From contig NZ_FNFE01000002.1 of the NCBI RefSeq assembly GCF_900100335.1, positions 310,001 to 374,000 of the forward strand: DNA of 64,000 nt, written 5' to 3'. The DNA comes from Natronorubrum texcoconense. Its GTDB lineage: Archaea; Halobacteriota; Halobacteria; Halobacteriales; Natrialbaceae. Made by a program: the position numbers and the translations under genes. Each line of letters starts with the position of its first letter. Position 1 is the first letter of the stretch. This document shows positions 23,675 to 33,158 of this stretch, piece after piece. The notes under the pieces are model-generated. The model was not told where the DNA came from, ran no database searches, and was given only the letters and a program-made list of their open reading frames with translations.

Positions 23675-24010
23675 TCAGGGACCGATCCCCTCTACGGGGA
23701 CTTCGGTCTCGCAGTTCGGACAGGCCGCGTGCTCCTCGGACCCCGTATAGGTCCACGTCTTCCCGCACTCGTGGCAGTTCAGTTCGACCGAATCGGGGGT
23801 CTCCGGTTCGGTGCCTCCGGAATCGTGACGTGCGTTTCGAAAGCGCGAGACGACGGTCTCGAGGTCGTCTAGCTCCCTCTCGGGGAGCGGGAGACCGCCC
23901 TCGTGGCCCTCGACGACGAGTCGGTACTCGGCGTCCGCGTCGTCGTCGGCGACGACCGCGTACCGTCCCTCGCTCACGATCGGCTCTCGATCGGGATGTT
24001 CGTTGACCAT
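23675..24010 (-). CDS. Zinc-ribbon protein
   Basis: 111 residues. The N-terminal half is a small beta domain with alternating acidic residues (RYAVVADDDADAEYRLVVEG). The C-terminal half carries one zinc ribbon, LNCHECGKTW followed by AACPNCETEV, giving two C-x-x-C pairs about 18 residues apart. Such haloarchaeal proteins are often cytosolic and may bind nucleic acid or protein. No enzymatic motif. It stands apart from its neighbours; function unknown. Confidence 0.7.
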   Translation of the reverse strand: MVNEHPDREPIVSEGRYAVVADDDADAEYRLVVEGHEGGLPLPERELDDLETVVSRFRNARHDSGGTEPETPDSVELNCHECGKTWTYTGSEEHAACPNCETEVPVEGIGP

Positions 24011-24161
24011 GCGAGTGAGTACCTCGCCGAGTCAATTCGTTCTTGTGCCGGCAACAGCCTCGTGCCGACGACGGCCCCCTCGGCAACTGGACGGCCCGCA
24101 GGACTGTCGCGCCGTCCGAGACATGGCAATCCTTTTCCGCGGCGGTACAGAACCCGAGGGT

Positions 24162-24551
24162 ATGTCCGACGAAAACGAAGCCGACAACGGTAGCGACGAC
24201 GGCGAGGAGAAGTCCTTCCGCGAGCGAGTCGAAGAGATTCGCGAAAAGCGCGCCGAAGAGGGTGAAGGCGAGGGTGAACCGCCGGAGAGTCCGTTCGGCG
24301 GCGGTGGCGGCGGACCCGGCGGCCCTGGCGGCATGGGCGGCGGCGGCAACCCGTTCGCGCAGATGATGGGCGGGATGATGGGCGGCGGTGGCGGCCCCGG
24401 CGGCATGGGTGGCGGCCCGGGCGGTCCCGGCGGCCGCGGCGAAGAGGTCGGTAACGAAGAACTCGTCCAGGAAGTTCGACAGCTCCGCGACGAGATGCGC
24501 GACCAGACGCGCGCGCTCAAGCGGATCGCCGACGCGCTCGAGGACAACTGA
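24162..24551 (+). CDS. Glycine-rich low-complexity protein with coiled-coil end
   Basis: 129 residues, MSDENEADNGSDDGEEKSFR. The first 45 residues are charged with a helix (RERVEEIREKRAEEGEGEGE). The centre, about 46-95, is almost pure Gly/Pro/Met (PFGGGGGGPGGPGGMGGGGN, then QMMGGMMGGGGGPGG). The last 35 residues form an amphipathic helix (NEELVQEVRQLRDEMRDQTR). The composition recalls glycine-rich RNA-binding or condensate-forming tails, but no RRM or RGG box is present. The ATG at 24162 is used because the frame before it shows no coding character. Function unknown. Confidence 0.6.
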   Translation: MSDENEADNGSDDGEEKSFRERVEEIREKRAEEGEGEGEPPESPFGGGGGGPGGPGGMGGGGNPFAQMMGGMMGGGGGPGGMGGGPGGPGGRGEEVGNEELVQEVRQLRDEMRDQTRALKRIADALEDN

Positions 24552-24654: not shown

Positions 24655-25812
24655 TCACCGACCGCTCACCGACGCGTAGGCGTCCCGAAGCCGGTCGACC
24701 GATCGCTCGAGACCGATCGACTCCCGACGCTCGAGACACTGGGACGCGAGTTCGGAGCGCTCGTCCAGCGCTCGCTCGAGCACACGCCGAAAGCCGGTCA
24801 AGTCCCCGGCCCGATAGTGATAGCCGGTCTCGCCACCCGAAACCGTCTCGGCGAGCGCGCCCGCGTCGACGCCGACGACCGGCGTGCCACAGGCGATCGC
24901 CTCGAGCGCGACCAGCCCCTGCGTCTCGACGGGGCTGGGGAACGCGAAGACGTCGAGCATCGAGTAGAACGCCGGCAGTTCGCTCCGGTCGAGAAAGCCG
25001 AGGAATCGGACGTCGAAATCGAGCGCCGCGGCCCGCCGCTCGAGCGACGGTCGGGCGGGACCGTCGCCGGCCAGTACGAGGGTGGCGGACTCGAGGGGAG
25101 TGTCAGTGCGATCGGCTGCTCCAGCGACGGCGTCGAGCAGATCCTCGAGCCGTTTCTCGTGCCCGTGACGGCCCGTGTAGCCGATCAGCGGTGTGTCTCG
25201 ATCGAGTCCGTGACGGTCCCGAAACGCGGAGGTGTCGACCGGGCGGAATCGCTCGAGGTCGACGCCCATCGGGACGACTCGAACGGGCGTCGAGATGCCG
25301 ATCGACTCGCGGACGTAGCGACGGGTCGTCTCCGACGGCGCGAGAACCACATCCGCGCGGTCGTAGAATCGACGTTCGTATGCGAGCGCACCGCGTCGTG
25401 CAAGTCCTTCGACGCTCCGGAGGCGATCCGACGGCAGGAGATACCGCGCGTACTCGGCCGTCGGCGTGTGATAGGAGGCGACGAGCGGCACGTCGGCGCG
25501 GCGCGCGAGTCGCTGGGCTGCGAGCCCGAGACCGAATGGGGTGTGCGTGTGGACGACGTCCGCCCGCGAGAGGTCGTGGCTGGCAGGAACTCGCGGCCAG
25601 CCGAGCCGATAGCCGTCGTACCACGGAAACGGCACGCTCCGGACGGCGTGTTCTCCCACCCGAGGATCGTAGCCGGGCGCGTTCGGGAAGACGACGGCCA
25701 TCCGGCCGCCGCGCTCGAGCCAGCGGTCGCGCCAGTTGCGGACGGTGTACGTCACGCCGTTGATCGTCGGCAGGTAGCTATCCGTGAAGACGGTGATCTG
25801 TGGGTACGTCAC
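24655..25812 (-). CDS. Glycosyltransferase family 4
   Basis: 385 residues, GTG start (read as MTYPQITVFTDSYLPTINGV) overlapping the PAP2 stop by 4 nt (GTGA). GT4 features: N-terminal GVTYTVRNWRDRW; the PAPSETTRRYV/VVPMGVDLERFRP linker; the C-terminal donor loop (GYTGRHGHEKRLEDLLDAVA) and the E-x7-E motif in PVETQGLVALEAIACGTPVV. It closely resembles alpha-mannosyl/glucosyl transferases that act on lipids. The donor would be a nucleotide sugar. It is the 3'-most gene of the cluster and translationally coupled to the PAP2 gene before it. Confidence 0.85.
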   Translation of the reverse strand: MTYPQITVFTDSYLPTINGVTYTVRNWRDRWLERGGRMAVVFPNAPGYDPRVGEHAVRSVPFPWYDGYRLGWPRVPASHDLSRADVVHTHTPFGLGLAAQRLARRADVPLVASYHTPTAEYARYLLPSDRLRSVEGLARRGALAYERRFYDRADVVLAPSETTRRYVRESIGISTPVRVVPMGVDLERFRPVDTSAFRDRHGLDRDTPLIGYTGRHGHEKRLEDLLDAVAGAADRTDTPLESATLVLAGDGPARPSLERRAAALDFDVRFLGFLDRSELPAFYSMLDVFAFPSPVETQGLVALEAIACGTPVVGVDAGALAETVSGGETGYHYRAGDLTGFRRVLERALDERSELASQCLERRESIGLERSVDRLRDAYASVSGR

Positions 25813-26660
25813 GGGTCGCGGTTGCGGAGGCCACCGATCGTGGGAACGCGGCCGTCGACCCAGTCAGAAAGCGACCAGCGACCGACGAGGAGGTGTGCGA
25901 GTTCGACGCTGACGTACGCGAGCACGATCCCGGCGACGACGTCGATCGCCCAGTGGATGCCGAGGTACATCGTCGAAATCGCAACCGAGACCCCGAGGAG
26001 GATCGCGACGACGTTCCACTTCGGATAGACGTCTCGCGTGCGGTAGGCCAGGAAGGTGACGGTCGCCGCGAGCGAGGTGTGCAGCGACGGAAAGACGTTG
26101 GTGTTCCGATTCACCTGACGCGTGAGGTGTTGATACTGCGGGTACGTGTCGTACAGCAGCGCCTCGACGAGTTCGGGCATCATGTTCCGCGGCCCGTAGG
26201 CGATGACGAAGATGTAGAGCACCAGCCCGAGCGTGTAGTTCAGCGTGTACGCGGCCAACAGCTCCCGCAGCGGCCGCGTGTTCGACAGCGCGAAGTAGGC
26301 GACGACGGGAAAGACCAGCAAGAAGACGTAGCCGTAGATGTAGATAAACGAGAAGTACGCCGTCAGCCACGGCGTCGCCTGATCCTGCAGCCAGAGGATG
26401 AACTGCCCCTCGATGTCGTAGATCGCCCACGTCAGGTTCCAACCGATCATCCACGAGAGGTCGGGGACGATCTGTCTGGCGACGCTGTTGAACAGTAAAA
26501 CGACGGCGAGCACGACCGTGATCGGTGCGGCCGCCCGAATCCGCCCGCGCCACTCCGTTCGCGTCTCGCGGAGCCGGTAGCGGCCAACGAAGAGCCCGAT
26601 CGAGACGATCACCATGAGCGTCACGACCACGGCCAACTGCATCAGCACTTGTACCAACAT
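25809..26660 (-). CDS. PAP2/Aur1-type membrane protein, copy 1
   Basis: 283 residues, start MLVQVLMQLAVVVTLMVIVS at 26660. About six or seven transmembrane helices. The catalytic region reads NRNTNVFPSLHTSLAATVTF and STMYLGIHWAIDVVAGIVLA: PSLH-x-S and G-x-H-x-x-x-D are the second and third PAP2 motifs, and the arrangement (no classic first K-x6-RP motif) fits the Aur1/Ipt1 type that swaps lipid head groups. It acts at the outer membrane face. The start overlaps the substrate-binding protein's stop (TGATG), so the two are coupled. A close paralogue is at 28547-29404. Confidence 0.85.
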   Translation of the reverse strand: MLVQVLMQLAVVVTLMVIVSIGLFVGRYRLRETRTEWRGRIRAAAPITVVLAVVLLFNSVARQIVPDLSWMIGWNLTWAIYDIEGQFILWLQDQATPWLTAYFSFIYIYGYVFLLVFPVVAYFALSNTRPLRELLAAYTLNYTLGLVLYIFVIAYGPRNMMPELVEALLYDTYPQYQHLTRQVNRNTNVFPSLHTSLAATVTFLAYRTRDVYPKWNVVAILLGVSVAISTMYLGIHWAIDVVAGIVLAYVSVELAHLLVGRWSLSDWVDGRVPTIGGLRNRDP

Positions 26661-28468
26661 CAGTGTCTCACCCGGAGGGTGCCGTCGGAATCGTACCGAA
26701 ATCCGGCGTCTTCGAACGCCGCCCGCGCGGCCTCGACGTCGAGGTCGCCGTTCGAGCCGAGAAACGGCATCTCGGGGTCCTCGCCGTCCCACTCGAGCCC
26801 GTCGGGAACCCACTCCTCGGTGACCGGCGTCGCGATCGGTCTCGCGTGGCCGTCGAACACCTCCTCGACCAGCCAGGCCTTGTCGAGCAGCCGGGCGACG
26901 ACCTGGCGGAATCGCGGGTTGCTAAAGGGTGCCTTGCGCGCGTTGAACCCGAGGTGGTAGAACGTCCACGACGGCGACTCGACGAGTTCGACGTCCTCGC
27001 TTACGTCGATATCGTCGACGACGTAGGTCTCGAGGGCCGAACTCGTGACGTCGGCGGCGTCGTCCTCGAGCAGCTGGATCGCCGACGTGCTCCGCGGATC
27101 GATCTGGACGCGGAGTTCGTCGACGGTCGGCTCCGGGCGGTCGACGTCCTCGCGTAGCGTGAAGTGGTCGTCGAACCGCTCGAACGTGACGTGCTCCCGG
27201 TCGGTGTGATCGGCGTACTGGAACGGTCCGCTGCCCACCGGCGGGAAGTTGTTCGTCACCACTGCCTCGGTCGTCCCCTGTGCGACGCGAACGCCGCGAA
27301 CGGACGCCTCGTCCGCGCGGTCGCGCCAGATATGCTCGGGAAGGATCGGTACCGTCAACGCCTGTTCGCCGACCGCCTGACCCGCGTCGACCGCGAACTC
27401 GAGGGTGTGTTCGTCGCTCGCCTCGACCTCGTCGATCGCTGCAACGCGGCCCCGAAACCGCGGTGACGGCGCGGGCGAGCTGTCGCCTCCGAGCGCGGTG
27501 TCCGCGAGGAAGCGATAGCTGAACGCGACGTCGCTTGCGGTGAGCGACTCGCCGTCGTGGAACGTACAGTCGGGCTGAAGTTCGACGACGAGCGTCGACT
27601 CGTCGACCCACTCCACGTCCTCGGCGAGCCACGGCTCGAGCGAACTGTCGCCGTCGGCGGTGACGGTCTCGGTCGCGAGCGAGTCGTACAGCAGACCGGT
27701 GATCGTTCCCCGGTCGCGATACTCGGCGGTCAGGGGGTTGAGGTTCTGTGACGGACGAGCGTCCATGTGGACGGTCCGAAGCTGTTCGCTGCTCTCCTCT
27801 GTCAGCGGCTCGAGACCGAGATACCCGCCTCGCGTCGCGAGGTGGCCGTCCGCCCAGCCCTCGAACCGGTCGGCTCGCACGAGTCGGTGCTCGGTCGGCG
27901 TACAGACGGGGACGAACGGCTGTTCGACGGCAAGCGCCTCGAGTAACGTTTCGACGGCGTCGCGGCGCTCCTCGCCGTCGGCCTCTCGCTGTGTCTCGAG
28001 CAGGTCGTCGACCAGCAGGTTCGTAAAGCCGAAGGGGTTCTGCCAGCCGGATTCGTCGGCGTACAGCGAGTGCAGCGACTCGTAGAGAAAGTCCGGATCG
28101 ATGCCGCCCGGATGCTGGCCGACGTAGATATCGAAGTCGTGGTTGATCAGGATCGCTCGCAGGAACTCCTCGTTCGAGCGCATCTCGATGGCCGTATCGA
28201 CGCCGGCGGTCTCGAGCACGGCGGCGATCTCTCGAGCCAGCCGGATGCTCTCCCGGTCGCCGTCGGCGGGAAGCGTCGTGATGGTCAGCGAGAGCTGGTC
28301 GATATCGTCACGGTTGACGATGCTTCGGAACTGGCTGAGACAGCCGCTCGTCGCCATCGTGAGGCCGGCGGCGCCGGCCAGTGCGGCCCGACGGCTGATG
28401 GCGGGTGACCGACCGCCACGCCGTCTCTCGCCTTCGGTGTCGACCGACGCAGCTCCACGCTCACTCAT
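26660..28468 (-). CDS. SBP_bac_5-type substrate-binding lipoprotein, copy 1
   Basis: 602 residues. A Tat lipoprotein signal is visible (SRRAAL at 25-30, lipobox TSGC with C43). The mature part is an extracytoplasmic peptide/oligosaccharide/nickel-type binding protein (family 5): LADTALGG, CTFHDGESLTASDVAFSY, LTVPILPEHIW, FYHLGFNARKAPFSNPRFRQ. Normally such a protein works with two permeases and two ATPases, but none is in this window. Instead it is fused by translational coupling to a PAP2 gene. The paralogue at 29404-31212 has exactly the same length. The ligand is unknown. Confidence 0.85.
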   Translation of the reverse strand: MSERGAASVDTEGERRRGGRSPAISRRAALAGAAGLTMATSGCLSQFRSIVNRDDIDQLSLTITTLPADGDRESIRLAREIAAVLETAGVDTAIEMRSNEEFLRAILINHDFDIYVGQHPGGIDPDFLYESLHSLYADESGWQNPFGFTNLLVDDLLETQREADGEERRDAVETLLEALAVEQPFVPVCTPTEHRLVRADRFEGWADGHLATRGGYLGLEPLTEESSEQLRTVHMDARPSQNLNPLTAEYRDRGTITGLLYDSLATETVTADGDSSLEPWLAEDVEWVDESTLVVELQPDCTFHDGESLTASDVAFSYRFLADTALGGDSSPAPSPRFRGRVAAIDEVEASDEHTLEFAVDAGQAVGEQALTVPILPEHIWRDRADEASVRGVRVAQGTTEAVVTNNFPPVGSGPFQYADHTDREHVTFERFDDHFTLREDVDRPEPTVDELRVQIDPRSTSAIQLLEDDAADVTSSALETYVVDDIDVSEDVELVESPSWTFYHLGFNARKAPFSNPRFRQVVARLLDKAWLVEEVFDGHARPIATPVTEEWVPDGLEWDGEDPEMPFLGSNGDLDVEAARAAFEDAGFRYDSDGTLRVRH

Positions 28469-28500
28469 TCGGATCGTTTGTCACAGTTCGCCGGTGGCGG

Positions 28501-28515
28501 TATAACAGTATTGCG
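28501..28515 (-). promoter_or_regulatory. Shared promoter block, copy 1 (SBP 26660-28468)
   Basis: The plus-strand text tataacagtattgcg starts 33 nt before the first codon of copy 1. Fourteen of fifteen bases match the block at 31243-31257. It contains the TATA element (on the minus strand, ttata) and a preceding CGCAATAy that could be a BRE or an operator. Confidence 0.6.
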
Positions 28516-28546
28516 TTGGCGGGCGGCGAGACGCGCCGCGAACGAG

Positions 28547-29404
28547 TCAGTCCGAGTCGACCCCATCGGACTCGTCGGCCCCGTCAGACCCGTCGGAACC
28601 GGTCAACCGACCGATCGATGCCGACAGCGACCACCGACCGACGATGACGTCCGAGAGCCAGACGCAAAGCGCCGCGAGCGCGAGGCCGGCGACGACGTCG
28701 ATCGCCCAGTGGATGCCGAGGTACATCGTCGAGATGATGACGCTGACCGCGAGCACGACGGCGACGGGGAACCACTTCAGGTACTCGTCGCGGGAGAGGT
28801 AGGCGAAGATACCGACCGTGGCCGCGAGCGAGGTGTGCAGCGACGGGAAGACGTTGGTGTTCCGATTGACTTCCCGCGTGAGGTGCTGATACTCGGGGTT
28901 GTGATCGTAGAGGACCGTCTCGAGTTCGCCCGCCAAGATGTTCCGCGGCCCGTAGGCGATGACCAGGAGGTACAGGACGAGCCCGAGCCCGTAGTTGAGC
29001 GTGTACGCCGTCAACAGCCGCCGGAACATGCGGGTGTCCGAGAGCACGAAGTACGCCACGGCCGGAAAGATCAGCAGGTAGGTGTAGCCGTAGACGTAGA
29101 TCCACGCGAAGTACTCCGTCAGATAGGCGTTGGCGACCCGCTGAAAGATCAGGATGAACTCCCCCTCGATGTCCCGGATCGCCGAGGTCATGTGGAAGCC
29201 GATATCCGGATCGCTTCGTCGCATCATCCGGTTGAGAACCAACGCGATTCCCAGCACGACGAGCACCGGGCCGGAGATCCGTAGGCGAGCGCGCCACTCG
29301 GTGAACGTGGTCTCGAGTCGTTCGCGGCCGATGAACAGCGCGATCGAAATCGGGAGCATGATCCCGACGACGACCGCAACTCGCGTCAGTACCTCAGTGA
29401 GCAT
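28547..29404 (-). CDS. PAP2/Aur1-type membrane protein, copy 2
   Basis: 285 residues, start MLTEVLTRVAVVVGIMLPIS at 29404; a longer frame upstream is only the antisense-like shadow of the lipoprotein gene. It has the same topology and motifs as copy 1: YQHLTREVNRNTNVFPSLHT, STMYLGIHWAIDVVAGLALA. The tail is Asp/Ser rich (GSDGSDGADESDGVDSD). The catalytic histidines and aspartate are all kept, so both copies should be active. The start overlaps the stop of the lipoprotein gene at 29404, exactly as in copy 1. Likely handles an isoprenoid or phospholipid substrate. Confidence 0.85.
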   Translation of the reverse strand: MLTEVLTRVAVVVGIMLPISIALFIGRERLETTFTEWRARLRISGPVLVVLGIALVLNRMMRRSDPDIGFHMTSAIRDIEGEFILIFQRVANAYLTEYFAWIYVYGYTYLLIFPAVAYFVLSDTRMFRRLLTAYTLNYGLGLVLYLLVIAYGPRNILAGELETVLYDHNPEYQHLTREVNRNTNVFPSLHTSLAATVGIFAYLSRDEYLKWFPVAVVLAVSVIISTMYLGIHWAIDVVAGLALAALCVWLSDVIVGRWSLSASIGRLTGSDGSDGADESDGVDSD

Positions 29405-31212
29405 CAGTTGTGCCTCAGTCGCCCGGCGTCCTCGTCGTATCGGTAGCCGATCTCCTCGAACATATCGTGCGCGAGCGTGACGTTCGGTTCGCCGTCGCTG
29501 CCGAGGAATCGGGTGACGAAGTCGTCGTCCTCGCTGTCCCACTCGAGGTGATCCGGGGTCCACTCGTCGGTGACAGGCGTCGCCAGCGGCTCCGCGTGGG
29601 CCTCGTCGAAGAACACTTCGTCGATGACCCACTCCTTGTCGATCAGCTGTGCGACCGCCTGTCGGAAGCGGAAGTCGCCACACGGCATCCGCCGCGTGTT
29701 GAAGCCGAGGTGGTAGAACGTCCACGAGTCGTCGTCGTAGCGTTCGATCCCGTCGTCCTCGGGGATGTCGGCCAGCGAGAACGCCTCGAGCATCGACTCC
29801 GTCAAGTCGGCGCCGCCGCTCGCGACGCGCTCGATGGAGGAGACGCTTCCCGGGTCGACGGTGAAGCGAATCTCGTCGACGGTCGGCTCGAGGTGGACGT
29901 CCGCGTCGAGCGTGTCGTCCTCCTCGTCGAGCGTGAAGTGGTCGTCGAAGCGCTCGAGGGTCAGGTGGTCGCGCTCGGACTGACTCTCGAACTGGTAGGG
30001 TCCGCTGCCGATCGGATCGATCGCGTCGCTGGTGACGATTCCCCAGCGCCCCTGCGGCGCCGAGAAGTCGTCGAGGTCGCCGATGCGGTCGTTGAGTTCC
30101 GCTAGCCAGACGTGCTCCGGCAGGATCGGAACCGTCAGCGCTCGTTCGGCGACCTCCCGGCCGGCGTCGAACGAGATCCGGAGCGTGTACTCGTCCTCGT
30201 CGTCGGTCTCGATCTCGTCGATCGCGCTCACGTGCCCGCGATAGCGCGGCGCCGGCGAGGGGTGCGTGGCGCTCGTGTACGACGTGTCCTCGAGGAACGC
30301 GTAGGTGAACGCGACGTCCGCGGCGGTGACCGGCTCACCGTCGTGGAACGTACAGTCTTCCCGGAGCGTGACGGTTGCGGCCGTCCCGTCGTCCTCGGTC
30401 TCGTCGTCCCACTCCCAGCCCTCGGCGAGCCACGGTCGGATCTCGTCGTCGACGAGGGTTCCGAGCGAATCGTAGAGGAGGTCGACGACCGTCCCCCGCT
30501 CGCGAACCGTCGCCGAGAGCGGGTTGACGTTTCGGGAGGGTCGCGCGTCGGTCACGAGGGCGTTCAGTCGCTCGACGTCGTCGTCCGGCTCGAGCCCGAG
30601 GTAGCCGCGTCGGGTCGCGAGGTGGCTGTTGTCCCAGCCCTCGAACCGATCGCTGGCCACCCGGTACTCGGTGGGTCGACAGATCGGCTCGAACGGTTTT
30701 TCGACGGCGATCTCTTCTAAGAGCGGTTCGATCGTCGCTTTCCGGTCGTCGGGGTCCGCCAGCCGCTGTGCTTCGAGGAGGCGGTCGATCTCCCTGACGG
30801 TTAGCCCGAAGGGGTTCTGCCAGCCGGATTCGTCGGCGTACGTGGAGTGGAGGGCCTCGTACAGAAAGTCCGGGTCGAAATCCGCGGGGTGGCGACCGAC
30901 GTAGAGATCGAAGTCGTGATCGATCAGGGTCATTTCGAGAAACTCGGAGCGAGAGCGCACCGTGAGATCCGCGTCGATGCCGACTGCCTGGAGGTTCGAC
31001 TCGAGATGGCGGGCGATCTGGACGGTTTCTCGGTTGTCGTCGCGGGGGACCGTGACGATGGAGAGCGAGAGTTGGTCGTCTTCCTCACCGGTGACGACGC
31101 TTCGAACACTGTCGATACAGCCGCTCAGGGAGAGCGAGAGCCCCGCTGCACCTGCAGCGAGGACAGAGCGTCGATCGACGCCGTCGACCGGATCAGTTGT
31201 ATTACGGTTCAT
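29404..31212 (-). CDS. SBP_bac_5-type substrate-binding lipoprotein, copy 2
   Basis: 602 residues, the same length as copy 1. A Tat lipoprotein signal is present (DRRSVL at 13-18, lipobox SLSGC with C32). Shared blocks include YADESGWQNPFG, CTFHDGEPVTAADVAFTYAF, LTVPILPEHVW, SWTFYHLGFN and ATPVTDEWTPD. The sequences differ widely in the charged linkers, so the duplication is old. No permease or ATPase is nearby. Its stop is coupled to PAP2 copy 2. The promoter block at 31243-31257 lies about 31 nt upstream of its ATG, and a strong hairpin further upstream separates it from the GT4 gene. Confidence 0.85.
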   Translation of the reverse strand: MNRNTTDPVDGVDRRSVLAAGAAGLSLSLSGCIDSVRSVVTGEEDDQLSLSIVTVPRDDNRETVQIARHLESNLQAVGIDADLTVRSRSEFLEMTLIDHDFDLYVGRHPADFDPDFLYEALHSTYADESGWQNPFGLTVREIDRLLEAQRLADPDDRKATIEPLLEEIAVEKPFEPICRPTEYRVASDRFEGWDNSHLATRRGYLGLEPDDDVERLNALVTDARPSRNVNPLSATVRERGTVVDLLYDSLGTLVDDEIRPWLAEGWEWDDETEDDGTAATVTLREDCTFHDGEPVTAADVAFTYAFLEDTSYTSATHPSPAPRYRGHVSAIDEIETDDEDEYTLRISFDAGREVAERALTVPILPEHVWLAELNDRIGDLDDFSAPQGRWGIVTSDAIDPIGSGPYQFESQSERDHLTLERFDDHFTLDEEDDTLDADVHLEPTVDEIRFTVDPGSVSSIERVASGGADLTESMLEAFSLADIPEDDGIERYDDDSWTFYHLGFNTRRMPCGDFRFRQAVAQLIDKEWVIDEVFFDEAHAEPLATPVTDEWTPDHLEWDSEDDDFVTRFLGSDGEPNVTLAHDMFEEIGYRYDEDAGRLRHN

Positions 31213-31242: not shown

Positions 31243-31257
31243 TATAACAATATTGCG
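31243..31257 (-). promoter_or_regulatory. Shared promoter block, copy 2 (SBP 29404-31212)
   Basis: The plus-strand text tataacaatattgcg starts 31 nt before the ATG of copy 2, with TATA at 31241-31247 on the correct spacing. It differs at one of fifteen positions from the block in front of copy 1, although the surrounding bases are unrelated. Confidence 0.6.
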
Positions 31258-31322: not shown

Positions 31323-31348
31323 GCGCCACCTATGTTGTTTGGTGGCGC
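31323..31348 (-). terminator. Hairpin across the GT4 stop codon with downstream T-run
   Basis: GCGCCACC and GGTGGCGC (8-bp stem, 10-nt loop) bracket the stop of the glycosyltransferase gene; the left arm contains the last coding bases on the minus strand. About 35 nt later the minus strand reads gaaaaagtttttgac. This looks like a transcription end separating the GT4 gene from the lipoprotein gene. Confidence 0.5.
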
Positions 31349-32508
31349 ATAACTCGACAATAGATCGGAACCAAACGCTCACCAACGCGCTCGAGTGCGT
31401 GCCTGTGAGCGGTCTGCCGGGCGTTCGCTCCGAGACGAGTCCGGAGGTCGGGGTCGGCGACGAGTCGCTCGATCGCATCGCGAAACTCCCGCTCGGTCTG
31501 GCACTTGAGACAGTCGGTGCCGTGGGTGTAGAACTCCTCGAAGACCGGCAGATCCCGGAGAACGACGGGTTTGCCACAGGCCATCGCCTCGAGGACGGCG
31601 ATCCCCTGGTTTTCGGCGTGGGTCGGAAAACAGAACACGTCGCCGGCGCCGAACGCGCCGCGTTTGTCCTCGATCCAGCCGGTGAACGTGACGTTTTCCG
31701 GCGGGTTGGCCGTCCAGTACTCGACCGTCCGACTCGCACGGATGCCGTCGTCGTAGGGACCGAACCAGACGAACTCGTAGGGAGTCCGCCGTGCCAGTCG
31801 GCAGAACGTCGACAGCCCCTTGCGCTCGAAGACGTTGCCGAGCGCGAAGACGACCGGTCCCTCGAGATCGTAACGCTCGCGGGAGGGATCGCGAAATCGC
31901 TCGTGGCCCGTCAGCGAGTCGCGGTCGACGCCGTTCGTGATCGACTCGATCGGCGCGTCGACGGGATAGGCCTCGAGATGACGTTTCGTCTGCTCGCTCG
32001 GACACAGCACGAGATCGGCCTGCGAGTAGAACCACCGCAGATAGCGACCGAGCGGTCTCGAAAGCGCGTTCGACGCGCGAAAGCTCTCCCGAAAGTCCTC
32101 GCGGGTGACGTGGGCGTGGAGAATCAGCGGCCGGCCGGTGCGTTTGGCGTGTCTGGCGACCGCGACCGATCCCGGACCGATCGCGTGGCAGTGAGCGACG
32201 TCGTAGTCGACGACCGGCGACTCCCCGCGACGGAGCCGCGACGGCAGCGACCGCGGCGATCCGTCCCACGGATCGGTCACCAGTTCGATCGCCGGTCTCG
32301 AGTCGGACTCGGGACTCGAATCGCTATCCTCGCGGCCGCCGTCGGGTTCGAACCTCTGGTCGTCCCCGTTGCGGCCGCTATCGGACTCAGCGTCGGACCT
32401 GCCACCGATTCGCTCGATGGCTGCCCGCTGCTGCTCGGCTGCCGTACTGATTCCGCTGCGCTCGAGTAGCGAGGCACGCTCGAGGTAATGCAACACGCGC
32501 AGGCTCAC
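31330..32508 (-). CDS. Glycosyltransferase family 4
   Basis: About 392 residues from a GTG at 32508 (VSLRVLHYLERASLLERSGI). Upstream the frame stays open for 160 codons but reads like random haloarchaeal sequence, so it is not included. GT4 features: CHAIGPGSVAVARHAKRTGR, PLILHAHVTREDF, LVLCPSEQTKRHLEAYPVDA, ITNGVDRDS, the loop ALGNVFERKGLSTFCRLARR and the E-x7-E motif in FPTHAENQGIAVLEAMACGK. A disordered Asp/Ser-rich insert is at about 40-75. Transfers a sugar from a nucleotide donor; acceptor unknown. On the same strand as the PAP2/SBP genes. Confidence 0.8.
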   Translation of the reverse strand: MSLRVLHYLERASLLERSGISTAAEQQRAAIERIGGRSDAESDSGRNGDDQRFEPDGGREDSDSSPESDSRPAIELVTDPWDGSPRSLPSRLRRGESPVVDYDVAHCHAIGPGSVAVARHAKRTGRPLILHAHVTREDFRESFRASNALSRPLGRYLRWFYSQADLVLCPSEQTKRHLEAYPVDAPIESITNGVDRDSLTGHERFRDPSRERYDLEGPVVFALGNVFERKGLSTFCRLARRTPYEFVWFGPYDDGIRASRTVEYWTANPPENVTFTGWIEDKRGAFGAGDVFCFPTHAENQGIAVLEAMACGKPVVLRDLPVFEEFYTHGTDCLKCQTEREFRDAIERLVADPDLRTRLGANARQTAHRHALERVGERLVPIYCRVMRHQTT

Positions 32509-32652
32509 GGATCGGTATATTCGAGGTGCCGACGAAAACCCTCCCGATCTCTGCCGTGACGGTCGCCCGACGCTCGTCGCCGACACCGACGCGAGGTGAG
32601 CGCTCGGAGCGGAGAGCACAACACCGATATGTGAACCGGAGAAAGACGGGGT

Positions 32653-32931
32653 ATGGACATCGCCGCCGAACGGATCGAGCGCCTCCACGAGTTGGCTCGA
32701 GCGGCGGCGGCGAATCGAAACGACGACCGGGCGCGCTACTACGTCCGACTCGCCCGGCGCGTCGCGGAACGGAACCGGCTGACGCTCCCTCGAGAGTTTC
32801 GGCGGTTCACCTGTGATCGCTGCGACGCGTACCTGCGTCCGGGGGTGAACGCCCGCGTTCGACTGCAGAACGGCCACGTCGTAATCACCTGCGACTGCGG
32901 GGATCACGCTCGGTATCCGTACGAGGATTGA
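32653..32931 (+). CDS. rnp4: Ribonuclease P protein component 4 (Rpp21)
   Basis: 92 residues, MDIAAERIERLHELARAAAA. It is a protein subunit of archaeal RNase P that helps the RNA subunit cut the 5' leader from pre-tRNA. The N-terminal helices (RIERLHELARAA, ARYYVRLARRVAERNRLTLP) are followed by the zinc ribbon: FTCDRCDAYLRPG and VVITCDCGDHARYP (C-x2-C and C-x-C). The length is normal. It is followed on the same strand by a YhbY gene, the usual haloarchaeal order. Confidence 0.85.
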   Translation: MDIAAERIERLHELARAAAANRNDDRARYYVRLARRVAERNRLTLPREFRRFTCDRCDAYLRPGVNARVRLQNGHVVITCDCGDHARYPYED

Positions 32932-33158
32932 GTGCGGACGAGCGTGGATACGTCCGGAGCGAACCCTGCTCGAACGGCCGACGTGTGGTCCAATCAACCG
33001 GGGAAACCGGGTCGACCGACCGACGGAGACGGACCAACTGACCGACGCGATCGGATTGTTACGCGTCTTGGCGACGGTTGTTCTATGACCGTGTGTACAC
33101 GGAACGTCGACATTCCGATTCGAGAAGATTCAAACGGCTCGGTTCGGTAGGGTATTCC

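Follow-up and report, generated by a model that had tools for sequence, protein, structure and literature searches.

In haloarchaea, a clade of lipoproteins of the substrate-binding protein (SBP) family SBP_bac_5 is tied to one clade of PAP2 membrane proteins resembling Aur1 and inositol phosphorylceramide (IPC) synthases: the two are distributed alike, lie next to each other with overlapping genes, have been duplicated jointly and give matching trees. Two copies of the pair lie in a stretch of 64,000 nucleotides of the Natronorubrum texcoconense genome (assembly GCF_900100335.1, contig NZ_FNFE01000002.1, positions 310,001 to 374,000 of the forward strand), which is referred to here as the window. 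We think that SBP and PAP2 rather probably constitute a dedicated two-part extracytoplasmic system, as suggested by the sequence comparisons and fold models presented below. On the best reading, the SBP would be tethered to the membrane and would assist an outward-facing lipid-phosphate enzyme of the Aur1 kind, as an accessory subunit or by presenting the substrate.

The genes are encoded on the minus strand in the order GT4b, SBP2, PAP2b, SBP1, PAP2a and GT4a, with family 4 glycosyltransferases (GT4) at both ends. The open reading frames (ORFs) of the two pairs are:

29404-31212, minus strand: SBP2 (P0002), 602 aa, lipoprotein of the twin-arginine translocation (Tat) type (RR...SLSGC, Cys32), circularly permuted SBP_bac_5 (PF00496, 9e-48, in two stretches)
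28547-29404, minus strand: PAP2b (P0004), Aur1-type PAP2 membrane enzyme (PF14378, 1.4e-19; PF01569, 2.8e-12) with YGPRN, FPSLHTS and TMYLGIHWxxD
26660-28468, minus strand: SBP1 (P0001), 602 aa, Tat-type lipoprotein, circularly permuted SBP_bac_5 (PF00496, 2e-47)
25809-26660, minus strand: PAP2a (P0003), Aur1-type PAP2 (PF14378, 6.3e-18), modelled with a predicted local distance difference test score (pLDDT) of 88.2

At both SBP/PAP2 junctions the PAP2 ATG overlaps the SBP stop codon by 1 nt (TGATG). These ORFs and junctions agree with an earlier note on this DNA, which had described two tandem pairs of a lipoprotein and an Aur1-type PAP2, each coupled by TGATG. It had also stated that no permease or ATPase of an ATP-binding cassette (ABC) importer is nearby, and indeed the 16 kb around both pairs (locus L019) yielded neither an opp permease nor an ATPase.

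Association of the binding protein with PAP2

The distribution of both clades was surveyed in 391 genomes of the class, with thresholds of E <= 1e-59 for the SBP and E <= 1e-60 for PAP2, and the resulting lists were compared by hand. Strong matches to the SBP occur in 264 of the 391 genomes and to PAP2 in 263, and the lists agree except for one genome (G130). This genome was considered as a counter-example to co-occurrence and ruled out, as its SBP is an ABC-linked permuted SBP in an OppBCDF operon. After this correction both clades are present in 263 genomes and neither is present in 128; the Fisher test gives p ~ 1e-106, a value that is overstated because the genomes are related. Across 42 diverse genomes the pair is mostly adjacent; its members lie apart in three of them (G135, G140, G178), yet both genes are kept there.

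Gene neighbourhoods were compared in 75 named haloarchaeal loci and two loci of the home genome, which together contain 123 SBPs of the clade. For 107 of these, a PAP2 gene follows downstream on the same strand, 102 times within 30 nt and 71 times with overlapping start and stop codons. OppBCDF was found in the same operon as a clade SBP in none of the 77 loci. An ABC importer SBP is expected to be encoded together with its cognate permease and ATPase, which applies to the sister clade described below and not to this one. The earlier expectation that the SBP clade pairs with PAP2 and not with oppBCDF is thus borne out by co-occurrence as well as by adjacency.

The two window SBPs fall into two Natrialbaceae paralogue groups, and orthologues of both copies exist in many Natrialbaceae, so that the duplication predates the genera. 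SBP1 and SBP2 are only 50% identical and PAP2a and PAP2b only 59%, which likewise indicates that the duplication of the pair in the window is old. The PAP2 tree has the same paralogue split as the SBP tree, identities correspond copy to copy, and the mirror-tree correlation between the proteins is r=0.86 (n=45), as compared with a permutation maximum of 0.22.

The 16 clade SBPs without a downstream PAP2 comprise 14 second copies of the Natrinema type, one second copy of Halovivax and one SBP of Halorussus amylolyticus. The Natrinema-type loci are arranged as SBP-PAP2-SBP, and the second SBP has lost its PAP2 (L060 12816-14594 and 13 similar loci). In Halorussus amylolyticus (L098 9965-11761; L128 7139-8935), a second clade SBP gene overlaps an upstream gene for a YdjM-family (PF04307) membrane hydrolase and has no PAP2, possibly a swap of partner to another membrane hydrolase. 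A WQNP motif is found in 117 of 122 clade SBPs as against 0 of 22 in the comparison, a count that is biased since the named loci had been fetched with WQNP.

Circular permutation and ABC-linked relatives

Both window SBPs belong to SBP_bac_5, as the earlier note had stated, with PF00496 scores of 162.5 and 163.7 bits against a curated cut-off of 32.4. They are not ordinary members, a point overlooked in that note, which had also missed the ABC-linked permuted sister clade; segment order and a fold model together identify them as circular permutants of the OppA/DppA fold. In the profile search of the genome, PF00496 positions 288-360 match upstream of positions 1-286 (288-366 before 1-286 in the comparison of segment order), the reverse of the canonical order. 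The canonical C-terminal third is thereby placed at the N-terminus, behind the lipobox, and in SBP2 it occupies the following segment:

30664-31092, minus strand: N-terminal SBP2 segment equivalent to the C-terminal third of canonical SBP_bac_5, from alignment and PF00496 segment order

The reference for the order was P0010, a canonical SBP encoded in the same genome. In SBP2, residues 41-183 match canonical residues 349-482 and residues 397-571 match canonical 176-337; in SBP1, residues 122-205 correspond to canonical 417-495 and residues 267-567 to canonical 66-331. The remaining permuted proteins give the same pattern against this reference. In the fold model of mature SBP2 (pLDDT 88.7), residues 177-571 superpose on residues 1 to ~360 of canonical SBP structures with Z 20-22. 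Residues 18-156 of the model run strand-helix-strand-helix-strand-helix-helix-helix-strand, an order of secondary structure that would be that of the canonical C-terminal part. When solved structures were searched by sequence for a permuted relative, only canonical SBPs came up, matching over residues 239-591. The cut lies near OppA residue 361, which we take to be inside domain III, and the lipid anchor therefore should exit from a different lobe than in a canonical SBP.

Permuted SBPs exist in both PAP2-linked and ABC-linked forms, as can be seen within the same genome, where one permuted SBP on contig C4 (P0006) is followed by a third PAP2 and two others (P0008 and P0009) precede full sets of oppB, C, D and F. 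Further ABC-linked permuted SBPs in haloarchaea (L014, L125-L127, L137, L138 and others) adjoin OppBCDF and have no PAP2. Outside haloarchaea, permuted SBP_bac_5 proteins adjoin opp genes in another family of the phylum (L153, L154). These ABC-linked proteins share the domain order and the junction region of the PAP2-linked SBPs, but they form a separate clade. In a quick SBP tree, the PAP2-linked SBPs form one group (Shimodaira-Hasegawa approximate likelihood ratio test support 100, branch 1.17), and their sister group is that of the ABC-linked permuted haloarchaeal SBPs, with support of 97 for the union. Canonical and some ABC-linked permuted proteins are mixed at the base, and the tree hence gives no proof of a single origin of the permutation. 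Since permuted SBPs adjoin opp genes also in another family of the phylum, the permutation is older than the partnership with PAP2. As the sister clade has the same permutation and sits with OppBCDF, the PAP2-linked clade looks, from these comparisons, like a transporter SBP that changed its partner.

It could be argued that the SBP is still an orphan importer component, which hands an oligopeptide or oligosaccharide to an OppBCDF encoded elsewhere, and that the adjacent PAP2 is incidental or serves phosphate scavenging. The retained SBP_bac_5 fold would agree with this, as would the presence of Opp systems in the genome, two of them with permuted SBPs. We nevertheless consider it unlikely in view of the 263/263 co-occurrence with one PAP2 clade, the gene overlap, the mirrored trees, the lack of any ABC association in the clade and the separate position of the ABC-linked permuted SBPs.

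The PAP2 enzyme and a putative two-part system

PAP2a and PAP2b are members of PF14378 (PAP2_3), with 65.7 and 71.1 bits against a cut-off of 27, and are thus of the Aur1 type. The motifs YGPRN, FPSLHTS and HxxxD are invariant in 30 PAP2 sequences, so the catalytic residues are kept. The nearest solved folds to the PAP2a model are the IPC synthase 9vj4 and Aur1 (9ivc), at a TM-score of only ~0.5, followed by LpxE and PgpB. Aur1 is likewise paired with an accessory subunit, Kei1, which is not known to be an SBP. The loops 26-46 and 207-214 are positively charged and the catalytic loops neutral or negative; the loop 123-130 and the C-terminal tail are neutral and depart from the charge pattern of an outward site. 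As the loop charges mostly fit, the active site would face outward, where the lipid-anchored SBP is located as well.

Upstream of both window SBP genes is a promoter-like element of 15 bp, CGCAATAYTGTTATA, which the earlier note had not mentioned:

31243-31257, minus strand: CGCAATATTGTTATA, promoter-like, with its TATA end 30 nt upstream of the SBP2 start codon (ATG)
28501-28515, minus strand: CGCAATACTGTTATA, promoter-like, with its TATA end 32 nt upstream of the SBP1 start codon (ATG)

These two sites are its only exact matches in the genome (4.64 Mb). In 65 sequences the 15 positions are nearly fixed and the bases on either side are unconserved, and the element is conserved in Natrialbaceae and at two loci of Haloferacaceae type. 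A clade SBP lies <=300 nt downstream of each of the 30 sites retrieved in a search of Natrialbaceae and of both window sites, and the reversed pattern gave 2 matches in 61 genomes. A general regulon element is ruled out by this restriction to clade SBPs. By its spacing, the element would suit a leaderless transcript as its core promoter; the palindrome CARTAYTG, on the side of the B recognition element (BRE), would be unusual. The element may be a single-target operator or promoter.

The PAP2 fold, its intact catalytic residues and its probable outward active site could also serve phosphoester scavenging, in which PAP2 would remove phosphate from phospholipids or phospho-oligosaccharides outside the cell, with the SBP capturing the substrate or product. 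The SBP fold binds hydrophilic ligands, and the sugar-phosphate-binding AccA is among the close structural matches. The operon lacks a transporter for the product, the PAP2 is of the Aur1 type and not of the secreted acid-phosphatase type, and the promoter element is confined to this pair, unlike a shared phosphate regulon. We hence regard scavenging as quite unlikely.

Our preferred reading, that of an SBP subunit serving an Aur1-like enzyme, would start with a permuted importer SBP that parted from its ABC importer and became linked to PAP2 on the outer membrane face, with the permutation first and the change of partner later. The SBP might hold a lipid-phosphate or glycan-lipid substrate, or an acceptor, by its hydrophilic part and deliver it to PAP2 or else switch the enzyme, and PAP2 would hydrolyze or transfer the phospho-head group. 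Through the permutation, the lipid anchor would be attached to domain III of the SBP, an arrangement that may favour docking to the surface of the membrane. We infer for the SBP a role as substrate presenter, acceptor-binding subunit or regulator, and the mechanism suggested in the earlier note, with the SBP presenting a substrate to the active site of PAP2, would be plausible. Taken in full, the proposal is a tentative one: the permuted lipoprotein would be the substrate-presenting or gating subunit of an outward Aur1-like lipid phospho-transferase, in a two-part haloarchaeal envelope-lipid system that has its own single-target promoter element and goes back to an ABC importer whose SBP changed its partner.

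The nearest functional precedent, by analogy, may be LpqW of Mycobacterium, a lipoprotein regulator of the synthesis of phosphatidylinositol mannosides, lipomannan and lipoarabinomannan that acts in envelope lipid and glycan synthesis (PMC3229680; PMC12421883) and would likewise be an SBP scaffold diverted to this purpose. LpqW (2grv) shares the family 5 SBP fold with the SBP2 model (VIA-align Z 19.8, rmsd (root-mean-square deviation) 3.8, 329 residues) and, as the PAP2-linked SBPs, is an SBP_5-fold lipoprotein without an ABC partner. The haloarchaeal SBP is not a member of the LpqW group, as LpqW has the canonical order (its residues 25-385 align to model residues 181-571) and the window SBP is permuted, LpqW is connected with the GT-C enzyme PimE and with lipomannan synthesis and not with PAP2, and it comes from another domain of life, with an identity to the SBP of only 15%. 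The importer lipoproteins of the OppA/DppA/NikA type share the Pfam family, the fold and the lipobox with the window SBPs, which differ from them by the permuted order, the missing ABC operon and the PAP2 partner.

Some lipoprotein binding proteins serve taxis receptors and not transporters. A chemosensory or signalling SBP would likewise be lipid-tethered and without a transporter, and the circularly permuted Tp0684 (MglB-2) of Treponema pallidum, a lipid-tethered sugar-binding protein, was proposed as a chemoreceptor (PMC4990184). For the haloarchaeal SBP such a role is highly improbable, as its PAP2 partner is constant and no transducer or kinase was recognized among the gene clusters common to the neighbourhoods, in which no search was aimed at them. 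Tp0684 is the nearest topological precedent, being a lipid-tethered binding protein that is circularly permuted by nature, but it has a Type I/Cluster B fold with another permutation and is a glucose receptor, and the part of the report consulted (PMC4990184) mentions no link to PAP2. The haloarchaeal SBP lies outside its group (type Ic, defined by a Cluster B fold whose first strands have moved to the C-terminus), as it belongs to the SBP_bac_5 family and its listed structural matches are SBP_5 proteins.

Several points speak against an SBP-PAP2 system. Shared ancestry inflates the mirror-tree and co-occurrence values, the second-copy SBPs of the 14 Natrinema-type loci have no PAP2 of their own, so that SBP and PAP2 do not match one to one throughout, and the glycosyltransferase context of the pair is not conserved. 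The support is computational. The SBP may also have kept ligand binding for uptake, as Opp systems exist elsewhere in the genome.

A haloarchaeal PAP2 and SBP pair or a permuted OppA was not found described in the open-access papers searched, with most subscription papers lying outside the search. In annotations, the pair probably goes under the names of an importer binding protein and a generic PAP2 phosphatase. Carried by about two thirds of the sampled haloarchaeal genomes, it points to an undescribed two-part system that would modify archaeal surface lipids or glycans. It would also offer a family-wide natural example of a transporter binding protein that changed its partner after circular permutation, with an ABC-linked sister clade surviving for comparison.

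Neighbouring genes

The glycosyltransferases that flank the two pairs are:

31330-32997, minus strand: GT4b ORF, with PF00534/PF13692 over 31330-32286
24655-25812, minus strand: GT4a (P0005), GT4 glycosyltransferase (PF13439/PF00534)

The true start of GT4b is probably well inside its ORF, and the GTG start of GT4a overlaps the PAP2a stop codon (GTGA). The best NCBIfam matches of GT4a are lipid-sugar synthases, all below the cut-off. The earlier note had placed a glycosyltransferase at each end, which is correct for the window, but the arrangement is kept only in part of the Natrialbaceae. Homologues of GT4a or GT4b occur with the pair in only a few of the 75 named loci, all of them Natrialbaceae, and the glycosyltransferases were therefore rejected as part of the core module. 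In some other genera, membrane proteins resembling protein mannosyltransferases (PMT-like) are found near the pair.

A secreted-looking protein of ~420 aa without a Pfam match is encoded near the SBP in 11 loci (L123 8618-9889 and ten others), mostly directly upstream on the same strand. Beyond the GT4 gene, at window positions 24003-24551, lies a gene for a Gly/Met-rich protein with a charged helical start, which recurs near the pair in seven Natrialbaceae loci.

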